From IMG/VR virus record IMGVR_UViG_3300021420_000077, positions 1 through 41,132 of that record: a DNA stretch of 41,132 bases; one strand, written 5' to 3'. Positions 718 to 8,013 of this stretch are shown piece by piece (position 1 is the first letter of the stretch; every line of letters begins with the position of its first letter). Under the pieces are notes generated by a model. It was not told the origin of the DNA, made no database searches, and saw only the letters and a program-made list of their open reading frames with translations. A program made the translations under genes and the position numbers. Origin of the DNA: a virus.

Positions 718-1112
718 AACGTCCTCCTAAATTCTAGGAGCATGGCAATCGCTCTCGCTCCCGCCGCGACCGCCTCAGCCGTTTGAGGAACATCGCTTCG
801 GCCTGTGGCCCTGTGAACTTCTGCCCGGCCTGTGGGCATTCTGATAACGCGGGCCTTGGCGCGGGCTTCCGCGAGCGTTTCTTCAAAGCCTTCGGTGTCT
901 CGGATGAGATTCGAGAATGGCAACGCGCCCGACCTTCGTGACTGCTCTTTGATGCCGCGTTTGATATGCCCAATCACGAGTTCAAGGTCGCGCTTGTCCC
1001 ATCCCTTCGCAATCCAGATTTCCCATTGCCACACTCGCGTCATGTCCAAAACTATCGGCAGGCTGGTCAAACCCACGTAACAGGCGTGTAAGAGGGTGAT
1101 TTGGTCGTTCAT
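714..1112 (-). CDS. Phage protein, probably replication-associated
   Basis: The chosen start at 1112 gives MNDQITLLHACYVGL and forms an ATGA overlap with the stop of the methyltransferase. Longer in-frame starts would only reread the methyltransferase tail. The 132-residue protein has the pattern WEIWIAKGWDKRDLELVIGH, KRGIKEQSRR, LPFSNLIRDTEGFEE and an alanine/arginine-rich tail (LAEARAKARVIR). I recall similar phage proteins encoded downstream of DnaD-like replication initiators, and the same arrangement is seen here, so a helper role in replication is plausible. No catalytic motif is visible. Confidence 0.65.
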   Translation of the reverse strand: MNDQITLLHACYVGLTSLPIVLDMTRVWQWEIWIAKGWDKRDLELVIGHIKRGIKEQSRRSGALPFSNLIRDTEGFEETLAEARAKARVIRMPTGRAEVHRATGRSDVPQTAEAVAAGARAIAMLLEFRRTL

Positions 1113-2233
1113 ATTATTTGTCGGATTGCTCTGGCGACGGCTTGTGCGACTTGCGGGACAATTGCATCCCCGGTGCATCGCGCAGAGGCTTGAGCCAATG
1201 CAGGGGAAATCCCATGAACCAACACTGGAATTCCGGTGTTAGTTTCCATCCACCAATCGGAGCTTGTAACCCTTCCACGCATGTCTGGACAGCGGCAGTC
1301 GTCGGTTTTCCGCCCTGACTGTATTTCGTTTTCCTGTTCGCAGCGGCGTTGCCAGTCAGCGTCGGCAAGAGTTGGCCCCGAATAACTGCGCTCAGTGGAA
1401 TGGTTTTGCCGCCCTTTTCCTGACGGCGTTTCATCACTCCTGAATCCAACCGGCCCCGGTCCCTCGTGTCCGAGGCAATCATTGTTGGAAGAAGATGTCT
1501 TGCCGTTCTCGTCAACAGGTCGTCGCCGAATCCCCTCTCCTTGCAATTCAAATCGACCCCACCCCGATTCGCGTTCAACGTCGGCAGAAGTTTGGACGCA
1601 GCGTAACTGCCCACTGAATTGTTCCCTCCCCACTTCGTCGCATTGGCGTTTTTGTTCTGCCGCATTGGTTGCGTGTCGAGAGTCGGCACCGATGATGATG
1701 AGCCGGAAACGCAGATGCCCGGCACCAAACAGCGCAGCGGGAATAGGTGTCCACAGACAATCATACCCGATCTCGGCCAATCCAGACACAATTCCGTTGA
1801 AGGCAGTTCCGTTAATTCCTTCTTCCCCGTCCCCATTGCCTTTAGCGAAAGACACTGCTGGCGGGTTCTCAAACACGCAGAATCGCGGTCGTAACTCGCC
1901 AACGACTCGGATGGCGTCACCCCAAAGCCAGCGGGCATCGGCAGTTCCACGCCGGTTTCCGAGAGTTGACACAGACTGGCATGGAGGACCTCCGACAATG
2001 ACCGAAGGACGGCCAACCGTTGCGAGAATCCTTGCAGAGAAGTCGGGCTTGGTAATGTCTCCGAAGTTCGGCACGTCGGGGTAGTGGTAACTTCCGACGA
2101 TGTTTTTATCGGAGTTGATTTCGGACACTCCAATTGTCCTGAATCCTTCCGCCTCAAATCCGATGGAGAATCCCCTGATTCCAGCGAACAGTTCAATGAC
2201 TGTCGGTTCATATTGTTTTTCAGAGTCTATCAT
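1109..2233 (-). CDS. DNA (cytosine-5)-methyltransferase, phage type
   Basis: It methylates the C5 of cytosine in DNA using S-adenosylmethionine; in phages this usually protects against host restriction. Visible motifs are I (ELFAGIRGFS, residues 14-23), IV with the catalytic cysteine (GGPPCQ, 81-86), VI (FENPP, 121-125; most relatives have ENV), VIII (HLRFR, 173-177; a variant of QRRxR) and a C-terminal GDAIVPQVAQ segment (about 355-364). Between motif VIII and the end lies a long low-conservation stretch that coincides with the second reading frame described separately. The start at 2233 (MIDSEKQYEP) puts motif I about 14 residues from the N-terminus, which is normal; an in-frame start at 2293 is possible. 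No partner restriction enzyme is seen. Confidence 0.9.
   Translation of the reverse strand: MIDSEKQYEPTVIELFAGIRGFSIGFEAEGFRTIGVSEINSDKNIVGSYHYPDVPNFGDITKPDFSARILATVGRPSVIVGGPPCQSVSTLGNRRGTADARWLWGDAIRVVGELRPRFCVFENPPAVSFAKGNGDGEEGINGTAFNGIVSGLAEIGYDCLWTPIPAALFGAGHLRFRLIIIGADSRHATNAAEQKRQCDEVGREQFSGQLRCVQTSADVERESGWGRFELQGEGIRRRPVDENGKTSSSNNDCLGHEGPGPVGFRSDETPSGKGRQNHSTERSYSGPTLADADWQRRCEQENEIQSGRKTDDCRCPDMRGRVTSSDWWMETNTGIPVLVHGISPALAQASARCTGDAIVPQVAQAVARAIRQII
1114..2211 (-). CDS. Second reading frame over the methyltransferase gene (LPTPT-repeat phage protein)
   Basis: A 365-codon open frame on the same strand, shifted relative to the methyltransferase, covers almost the whole gene. It is not random. 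It carries WPRSGM (residues 145-150), three repeats of LLPT[LM] followed by a small-residue segment (208-215, 240-248, 281-288), and a tryptophan-rich end (PEFQCWFMGFPLHWLKPL, about 326-343). From memory these are the hallmarks of a phage protein family usually found beside or over C5-methyltransferase genes, in which LPTPTAxD repeats precede a MGFPxGWT end. The family's function is unknown to me. The start codon is uncertain: 2211 is the first ATG of the frame. The stop TAA lies 1 nt before the start codon of the next gene. Confidence 0.6.
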   Translation of the reverse strand: MNRQSLNCSLESGDSPSDLRRKDSGQLECPKSTPIKTSSEVTTTPTCRTSETLPSPTSLQGFSQRLAVLRSLSEVLHASLCQLSETGVELPMPAGFGVTPSESLASYDRDSACLRTRQQCLSLKAMGTGKKELTELPSTELCLDWPRSGMIVCGHLFPLRCLVPGICVSGSSSSVPTLDTQPMRQNKNANATKWGGNNSVGSYAASKLLPTLNANRGGVDLNCKERGFGDDLLTRTARHLLPTMIASDTRDRGRLDSGVMKRRQEKGGKTIPLSAVIRGQLLPTLTGNAAANRKTKYSQGGKPTTAAVQTCVEGLQAPIGGWKLTPEFQCWFMGFPLHWLKPLRDAPGMQLSRKSHKPSPEQSDK

Positions 2234-2354
2234 TCCGGTTGCGAGTTCGCAGAATGCCCCCGGCAAAAGGGGTATCTGCAAGAGTACCATCACTCTCGGC
2301 GCTGAGCCATGCAGTTTCTTCCTGAGCCTTTGGACAACCTTTCCGTGGCTTCAT
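2220..2354 (-). CDS. Small hypothetical protein (44 aa)
   Basis: The frame opens MKPRKGCPKAQEETAW with an ATGA overlap on the stop of the gene at 2351-2551. It ends 14 nt inside the methyltransferase, whose start at 2233 lies within its last codons. Tight coupling on both sides is the main support. The protein is short, charged and without a recognisable domain. If the methyltransferase used the 2293 start instead, the two would overlap much more and this gene would be doubtful. Confidence 0.4.
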   Translation of the reverse strand: MKPRKGCPKAQEETAWLSAESDGTLADTPFAGGILRTRNRNDRL

Positions 2355-6680: not shown

Positions 6681-7286
6681 ATGAACATACAAGTCAAAAC
6701 TATATTCGGCAAAATCATCATCGACGGCGATTTCACTTCGTTAGCTGATGCGCTTTTTCACAATCGCGCGAACCTGCGAGGTGCCGACCTGTGCGATGCC
6801 AACCTGTGCGATGCCAACCTGCGAGGTGCCGACCTGCGCGGTGCCAACCTGCGCGGTGCCAACCTGCGCGATGCCAACCTGCGAGGTGCCGACCTGCGCG
6901 ATGCCAACCTGCGAGGTGCCGACCTGCGCGATGCCAACCTGCGAGGTGCCGACCTGCGCGGTGCCAACCTGTGCGATGCCCCATTCGCCGTCCAGCACTT
7001 AGACGCAAAAATTCTTGCAGCTATTGAAAACGGCGGTGTGTTGGACATGAAAGCATGGCACACATGCGAAACTACGCACTGCCGCGGCGGGTGGGCTGTT
7101 GTAATGGCTGGCGCGGCAGGCAAAACCCTTGAGTGGGTTTACGGCAGCAATACCGCCGCCGCCTTGATTTACGGGGCGTCCCGCCCAAAAATGAAGGTGC
7201 CTGATTTCACCGGCAGCTTGGATAACGATGCGGTATTGGATGACATTCGCGATTGCGCCGCGGCTGACCCGTTGCCAAAATCTTAA
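6681..7286 (+). CDS. Pentapeptide-repeat protein with C-terminal HTC-type domain
   Basis: Residues 1-30 are a lead-in ([18 protein letters not shown]). Residues 31-100 are 14 uninterrupted pentapeptides of the form [ND]L[RC][GD]A, which fold as a right-handed square helix that can mimic DNA. Residues about 120-201 form another domain with [20 protein letters not shown] and later [11 protein letters not shown] recall this C-terminal domain in other phage pentapeptide proteins. Known pentapeptide proteins protect DNA gyrase from inhibitors, but here the role is open. It is the first large gene of the rightward operon. Confidence 0.8.
6771..6980 (+). repeat. Fourteen tandem 15-bp units encoding pentapeptides
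   Basis: Exactly 210 bp built from 14 in-frame copies of a 15-mer of the form [AG]ACCTG[CT]G[AC]G[AG]TGCC. The units are nearly identical at DNA level, not just in protein, so the array is young or homogenised. Units can be gained or lost without breaking the frame. Confidence 0.9.
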
Positions 7287-7308
7287 AAATCTGGAAAACA
7301 CCAAACCT

Positions 7309-8013
7309 ATGAATGACACTGTGGCAGTGCAGCGCGTCGAGCCGGGCGGCGAAATAACGATTCGGCAGGCGTTCGAGGCGGCGGCTTCCAAGTCGCTGGA
7401 CAAAGAATCACTGGCGGTCATGCAGGAACTTTTGAAGATGGATGCGGAGCAACGGTTCACCGCCGCTTTCGTCGCGCTTCAACAGGAAATGCCGACGATT
7501 ACTGCCAAAACGATTATCCCAAACCGTGGTAAATACGAGAAGTTCGAGGATTTGATGGAAGTTGTCGGGCCGCTGCTGACAAAGCACGGCTTCACAGTGA
7601 CGTTCTCAAACGACTTTCGGGATTCTCGCGTGATTGAGACGTGTCACCTCTCGTACGGACGGCACACGCGCAGCAACAGCTTCGCGGTGCGCGTTGGCCG
7701 GGGCGACGACGACACGCAAAAGGATTTGAAGGCCGCGACGACCGCCAAGCGGCTTGCGCTTTGCAACGCGCTAAACCTTGTCATTAGGCAGGACATGCAG
7801 ACCGATGAGAACGACGCCTCACTTGAAGGCGACCCGAACGCAAAGGTGACGGCAGATCAGGCCGATGAACTTGAACGGCGAGCGCAGTTGACCAATTCGG
7901 ATATTCCGGCATTTCTCAAATACGCCAAGGTCACGAAGTTCGCCGACATTCCGGCGCGGCTTTACACGGAGCTTGACCAGTTGCTTGCGCGGAAAGAAAG
8001 GCAGGGGCGGTGA
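7309..8013 (+). CDS. erf: ERF-family single-strand annealing protein
   Basis: ERF proteins anneal complementary single strands and drive phage recombination. The start at 7309 (MNDTVAVQRVEPGG) removes an upstream extension that rereads the previous gene. The family signature is in the middle: FVALQQEMPTI, KYEKFEDLMEVVGPLLTKHG, FTVTFSNDF, the SYGRHTRSNSF strand, and KAATTAKRLALCNALNLVI, where ERF members have the conserved G/A-x-T-Y/A-x-K-R-Y-x-L segment. The C-terminal tail (VTADQADELERRAQL) is typical. The neighbour at 8204 encodes the partner exonuclease, making a Red-like annealing/exonuclease pair. Confidence 0.85.
   Translation: MNDTVAVQRVEPGGEITIRQAFEAAASKSLDKESLAVMQELLKMDAEQRFTAAFVALQQEMPTITAKTIIPNRGKYEKFEDLMEVVGPLLTKHGFTVTFSNDFRDSRVIETCHLSYGRHTRSNSFAVRVGRGDDDTQKDLKAATTAKRLALCNALNLVIRQDMQTDENDASLEGDPNAKVTADQADELERRAQLTNSDIPAFLKYAKVTKFADIPARLYTELDQLLARKERQGR

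Follow-up and report, generated by a model that had tools for sequence, protein, structure and literature searches.

Two overlapping frames on one strand probably encode a split C5-cytosine methyltransferase in a virus

Known split and out-of-frame methyltransferases

Same-strand overlaps of several hundred bases in which two proteins are both under selection have seldom been documented. In the alpha/beta C5-methyltransferase M.EcoHK31I, the beta gene lies within the alpha gene in a different frame. The large chain of this YGGCCR-specific enzyme harbors motifs I–VIII and X, and the small chain motif IX (PMC3404938). M.AquI, an alpha/beta C5-methyltransferase specific for CYCGRG, is naturally split between motifs VIII and IX (PMC3404938). 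A different kind of hidden protein is exemplified by the ShiLan domain: methylase genes of mycobacteriophages conceal, in another frame, an HNH endonuclease (PMC11855218).

The locus described here resides in the window, a stretch of 41,132 nucleotides of viral DNA (positions 1 to 41,132 of IMG/VR record IMGVR_UViG_3300021420_000077). It resembles M.EcoHK31I in that a large chain, alpha, carries motifs I–VIII and X and motif IX lies in a second frame, beta, from which a separate polypeptide is inferred. Two differences exist: the M.EcoHK31I target-recognition domain (TRD) is predicted in its alpha chain (PMC3404938), whereas the LPT region found at the TRD place belongs to beta in the window, and the window system is viral. 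The best reading, drawn by analogy and without a test of sequence homology, is that the window system would work like M.EcoHK31I. In M.AquI, beta harbors both motifs IX and X, as it does in actinophage pairs such as Vash gp32/33. In contrast, motif X resides in alpha in the window and beta is nested, so that the M.AquI-type criterion of a small chain with motifs IX and X is not met. With the ShiLan arrangement the locus shares a second protein located out of frame inside a phage methylase gene. However, ShiLan is a mobile insertion that codes for a homing endonuclease, whereas beta has not been inserted and shares its DNA with the core motifs of the enzyme. An out-of-frame HNH endonuclease of the ShiLan type was considered for beta and rejected, since neither an HNH nor any other Pfam domain is present in beta.

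Organization of the window locus

According to the ORF listing, the alpha and beta frames are both open on the minus strand across the same DNA. An initial annotation, made from the sequence alone, had proposed two such frames across almost the same DNA, and both ORFs lie where it had placed them. The alpha ORF (1109..2293, minus strand; 394 aa) corresponds to the large subunit of a C5-cytosine methyltransferase by its matches to PF00145 and phrog_363. The beta ORF (1114..2211, minus strand; 365 aa) is shifted by +1 relative to alpha and is supported by phrog_1008 and by a beta family HMM. The two stop codons are 5 nt apart. The alpha ORF opens with a GTG at 2293, with alternative ATGs at 2290 and 2233, the latter (MIDSEKQYEP) being most likely the best start.

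For beta, a start survey of 95 nested loci suggests that the translated part likely begins at ATG 1938 (MPAGFG...; 1114..1938, minus strand), which is homologous to a recurrent start located 46 nt 3′ of the alpha PCQ. Starts upstream of this ATG are not excluded; in other loci, start codons are present just 5′ of motif IV, and many of these are accompanied by a Shine-Dalgarno-like sequence. No Shine-Dalgarno sequence was found at ATG 1938 itself, and such beta signals are patchy over the family. Of the roughly 1.1 kb of dual coding originally claimed, the overlap itself stands, whereas the securely dual-coded part amounts to about 0.8 kb and does not necessarily extend over the full ORF. Since the only close relative of the window, one other IMG/VR contig, is identical over the region, no dN/dS is available within the window lineage.

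The next downstream ORF (714-1178) overlaps the end of alpha, its likely ATG overlaps the alpha TGA, and it has no PHROG match. The virus is otherwise poorly covered: PHROG matches are absent for 9 of 10 larger window ORFs tested. An Erf-like ORF is found at 7228-8013 on the plus strand (4e-15, PHROG).

The methyltransferase core and the second frame

When the two translations were searched separately, alpha matched PF00145 (2.4e-30, 106.5 bits; curated cut-off 22) and phrog_363 (6e-51), and beta matched phrog_1008. Alpha meets the criteria for PF00145 membership, as it scores above the cut-off and contains GGPPCQ (motif IV) and FENPP (motif VI). All methyltransferase motifs recognized in the initial annotation, including the GDAIVPQ end, could be located in alpha from motif positions, that of motif I also by alignment. 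On the minus strand, these are the SAM-binding motif I, ELFAGIRGF (2168..2194), motif IV, GGPPCQ, with the catalytic cysteine (1976..1993), motif VI, FENPP (1859..1873), the motif VIII region, FGAGHLRFRL (1700..1729), and motif X, GDAIVPQ (1151..1171), where relatives show alpha-wobble periodicity. Motifs I, VI and X depart from the consensus—GIRG for GIGG, ENP for ENV and GDA for GNA, respectively—and the window may therefore hold a weakened copy; in the absence of activity data, it can only be said that alpha could be impaired as an enzyme. Motif IX was looked for in the alpha chain and is absent from it, being found only in the +1 frame.

Beta carries the LPT repeats and the motif IX that alpha lacks (LTPEFQCWFMGFP). 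Its sole profile match is phrog_1008, labeled 'DNA methyltransferase' (3e-13; residues 36-353 on profile positions 6-294 of 329), and the same profile is matched by 91/91 members of the beta family. Window beta is thus a member of phrog_1008, a label that is silent on an out-of-frame partnership with phrog_363-type alphas. Three features stand out, all on the minus strand. First, WPRSGM (1762..1779) is read from the same DNA as the alpha GLAEIGYD, where alpha codons are frozen in relatives. Second, the LPT repeats LLPTLNA (1590), LLPTMIA (1494) and LLPTLTG (1371) span a predicted target-recognition region (1351..1590). Third, motif IX, KLTPEFQCWFMGFPLHW (1195..1245), includes MGFPLHWL and has an in-frame equivalent in locus L121 and in phage PFR2. 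WPRSGM, the LLPT repeats and MGFPLHWL, like GDAIVPQ, had been quoted in the initial annotation, and all of them were found when the coordinates were checked. The function of the second family, which had been described as open, is less so than claimed, since the methyltransferase's own missing motif IX sits in this frame.

Structure prediction lends neither support to a split-enzyme mechanism nor grounds to refute it. The AlphaFold model of window beta alone has a mean pLDDT of 57, and its confident parts are limited to a pair of hairpins and the helix of motif IX; a compact beta reaches 63. A Foldseek search of the PDB with the beta models, mostly of low confidence, retrieved no C5-methyltransferase small domain and nothing useful, and a comparison of beta with PDB sequences yielded no match.

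Comparison with chance

The synonymous codons of alpha were permuted with the alpha protein preserved, and in only 0.03% of these shuffles does the whole +1 frame stay open (0.8% from motif IV to the end). A beta HMM built from 90 beta homologues, with the window excluded, scores the window's +1 frame at 107.9 bits, as compared with a mean of 23.7 and a maximum of 53.3 in 1000 alpha-preserving shuffles and -0.9 for the +2 frame. The claim that the second frame is not a product of chance is thereby borne out. It is conceivable that the +1 frame is an untranslated shadow ORF whose apparent conservation reflects only that of alpha. Indeed, conserved alpha motifs cast +1 shadows, namely FDPDTSSWRTS under LRPRYVVLENVP, WPRSGM under LAEIGYD, and GSSSS, and alpha-preserving shuffles still reach about 24 bits. 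However, this shadow accounts for only those 24 bits of the family score, and the observed 107.9 bits exceed all 1000 shuffles.

Split, fused, and nested relatives in cultured phages

By tblastn, beta matches genes of Streptomyces phages that are the second of two annotated as 'DNA methylase'. In Vash and its relatives, the first gene stops past motif VIII; the second lies in the +1 frame, and its end, LSPEFAEWMMGLEPGW...RIGNGVVP, corresponds to motifs IX and X. In Propionibacterium phage PFR2, a single ORF (gp47) encodes motif VIII, LLPTPTARD, FVEWMMGLPDG and GNGAVPQ in this order. The LPT repeats of beta lie at the same position as LLPTPTARD, and the order of parts in Vash and PFR2 suggests that the LPT repeats form the target-recognition part of a C5-methyltransferase and the MGFP end its motif IX. 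The single-chain relatives, PFR2 and L121, hold the beta parts in the frame of alpha, with LPTPTA, motif IX and motif X following one another in one frame, so that beta is fused to alpha in one chain. As to independent, non-overlapping homologues of beta, second genes with short or no annotated overlap do exist (Orcanus gp41, ArV1 067b), but none was found apart from an alpha.

Nested pairs also occur in cultured phages. Paenibacillus phage Leyra harbors a nested alpha and beta like those of the window (LEYRA_61/LEYRA_62), both annotated as DNA-cytosine methyltransferase, although the evidence in Leyra is annotation only. No description of the nested phage arrangement was found in the literature searched. 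The annotation of nested pairs (L206-L209, L004) is inconsistent, with both genes annotated in Leyra, only beta in SOVA965, and only alpha in BUCT711, MoxS-R1 and Rhynn. In the split methylases of the actinophages Sebastisaurus, Vash and Orcanus (L001, L002, L007), the second gene is annotated as starting deep within a longer, family-like open frame, and the true overlap is therefore probably longer than annotated.

Position of motif IX across loci

A scan of IMG/VR with the beta profile yielded 62 loci, all with a same-strand alpha match over or beside the same DNA. An alpha-only scan, blind to beta, yielded 80 loci, in which a regular expression for motif IX matched the +1 frame in 68/80, frame 0 in a single locus (L121), and the +2 frame in none; most of the 11 loci without a match show a degenerate MG[FY]P motif IX in +1. 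Among all de-duplicated loci, 113 have motif IX in the +1 frame alone and 14 have it in frame 0 alone; no locus has it in both, and 59 are not matched by the regular expression. Frequent stops in the second frame of homologous methyltransferase genes had been named beforehand as a result that would refute dual coding, and they are not seen: between motifs IV and X, 71 of the 80 alpha-selected loci have no +1 stop, eight have 1-2, and L121 has 7. In L121, motif IX is in frame 0 and the Pfam match covers residues 4-322 of 324. Nested loci occur in bacterial genome contigs too, and the nested genes range from 41 to 71% G+C; the median identity of their alpha N-domains is 55%. Five mixed loci (L011, L062, L078, L088, L089) have motifs IX–X in the alpha frame with the beta N-terminal part open in another frame; these are possibly relics or intermediates.

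Selection on both frames

In a gap-free alignment of 89 distinct rows on MG, variability falls on the third codon position of beta through motif IX and moves to that of alpha at motif X. Identity over motif IX is 73% in beta and 54% in alpha, and over motif X 63% in alpha and 26% in beta. In the VIII–IX interval, alpha sequences from different loci share only 25% identity, a value not above that of the +2 frame. The suggestion that the methyltransferase frame gives way to the other one thus holds. Synonymous-site conservation, proposed beforehand as a check, follows the same course: the excess identity at alpha synonymous sites in 95 nested loci is 0.00 at motif I, where variability matches the prediction from codon usage, 0.2-0.4 over VI–VIII and 0.6-0.7 over IX, falling to about 0 after X. 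Over motif IX, individual alpha codons are frozen (GGG 95/95, CCC 85/85, GCT 69/69). The same profile is obtained with 78 alpha-blind loci to which no motif IX filter was applied. Motif I and the part after motif X of the same nested genes, together with the +2 frame, provide clean controls; relatedness is excluded as the cause of the frozen codons because these free parts lie in the same genes.

Stop codons tell the same story. In the segment that begins directly 3′ of motif IV and runs to motif IX, the 95 nested loci contain 0 stops in +1 against about 374 expected, with +1 stops 5′ of motif IV and 3′ of motif IX, as well as +2 stops, near expectation. In the alpha frame, 0 stops occur between VIII and IX against 283 expected from beta-preserving shuffles, with the caveat that continuity of the alpha ORF was one selection criterion. 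The absence of +1 stops, the frozen alpha-synonymous codons and the beta-phase wobble through motif IX run against a mere shadow of alpha. That very improbable explanation is rejected on the basis of the alpha-preserving shuffles, the stop maps and the synonymous constraint. Both frames are under selection, and motif IX is in beta, not in alpha. With homologues, wobble switch, synonymous freezing and a lack of +1 stops in agreement, the proposal of a family-like second protein across a C5-methyltransferase gene is supported, and the case for dual coding is good both in the family and in the window locus.

A further possibility is that programmed ribosomal frameshifting fuses alpha motifs I–VIII to the +1 part with the LPT repeats and motif IX, giving one chain. 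In the actinophage split forms (Vash, ArV1, Orcanus), where IX and X both lie in the second frame, one shift would suffice for a full enzyme. In nested loci, however, motif X is in the frame of alpha again and two shifts would be needed. Moreover, the +1 constraint is already present over alpha VI–VIII, 5′ of any useful frameshift, and +1 stops are common 5′ of motif IV and absent thereafter, as expected for a start there. Frameshifting is therefore considered improbable. Since constraint over VI–VIII does not arise from a frameshift after VIII, independent initiation of beta upstream is favored, and beta is inferred to be a separate polypeptide.

A different +1 gene in classic methyltransferases

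Classic single-chain methyltransferases, which retain motif IX in their own frame, harbor a separate +1 gene that begins at motif IV and runs on for about 60 codons after VIII; these enzymes do not, for this reason, constitute a clean negative control. In 68 loci, this gene contains 0 stops against about 286 expected, with a synonymous excess of up to 0.83. The ORF of about 140-160 aa (loci L210-L289, alpha from ~1510, +1 ORF ~1655-2140, e.g., L229:1655-2140:+) encodes a product that ends with KYYLSPKACxGILRRAEKRGKxLP and matches phrog_16143. The dmt gene of phage P1 (AF234172) likewise contains an unannotated +1 ORF of 163 codons (L292:2219-2707) ending with KACAGILRRGEKR, which scores 109 bits against the family as compared with at most 60 in dmt-preserving shuffles.

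The occurrence of a +1 protein over single-chain enzymes that keep motif IX suggests that the beta N-terminal domain may have a role beyond supporting motif IX. It also leaves room for another view of beta as a translated and selected protein with mainly some other task, for instance regulating or inhibiting the methyltransferase or acting as an accessory factor unrelated to it, with alpha working alone: an alternative-frame partner without motif IX, as over P1 dmt, may exist for some other reason. This view is unlikely, given that alpha lacks motif IX in nested loci and beta strictly keeps it, that the +1 frame decays in L121, where motif IX is back in the frame of alpha, and that the LPT repeats and motif IX occupy the TRD–IX position of single-chain relatives.

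It may be, although this is tentative and may well not hold, that dual coding is general and old in phage C5-methyltransferase genes, with an overprinted +1 gene on motifs IV–VIII of several families, P1 dmt included. The second protein of the window branch would then have taken over target recognition and motif IX, and that of the other branch would have a different C-terminal module of unknown function.

A split enzyme from two frames

The explanation that we hold to be probable is a split C5-cytosine methyltransferase made from two same-strand overlapping frames, with beta supplying the TRD and motif IX; expression, assembly, activity, target and biological role are inferred. Alpha would provide the SAM-binding and catalytic core (motifs I–VIII), followed by a hydrophilic stretch of low conservation and then motif X. 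Translation of beta would be initiated independently within alpha, in the vicinity of ATG 1938 or upstream of it, and beta would comprise an N-terminal domain, the LPT repeats where the target-recognition domain is expected, and motif IX. Together, alpha and beta are proposed to assemble into one active enzyme which, as far as its role can be inferred, would probably shield the virus genome from host restriction. That motif IX is absent from one frame and present in the other strongly indicates, so far as sequence can indicate it, a division of labor between the frames.

Many divergent loci appear to share this division, in which one frame serves catalysis and the second provides target recognition and motif IX. 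The nested arrangement would account for the many phage methyltransferases that seem to lack motif IX, and for pipelines annotating alpha, beta or both. An orphan methyltransferase that has been recoded, or of which only the alpha frame has been cloned, would probably lack activity. The overlap of the P1 dmt type can be tested in a model phage, and the loci assembled here offer a large natural data set on two proteins that share one sequence.
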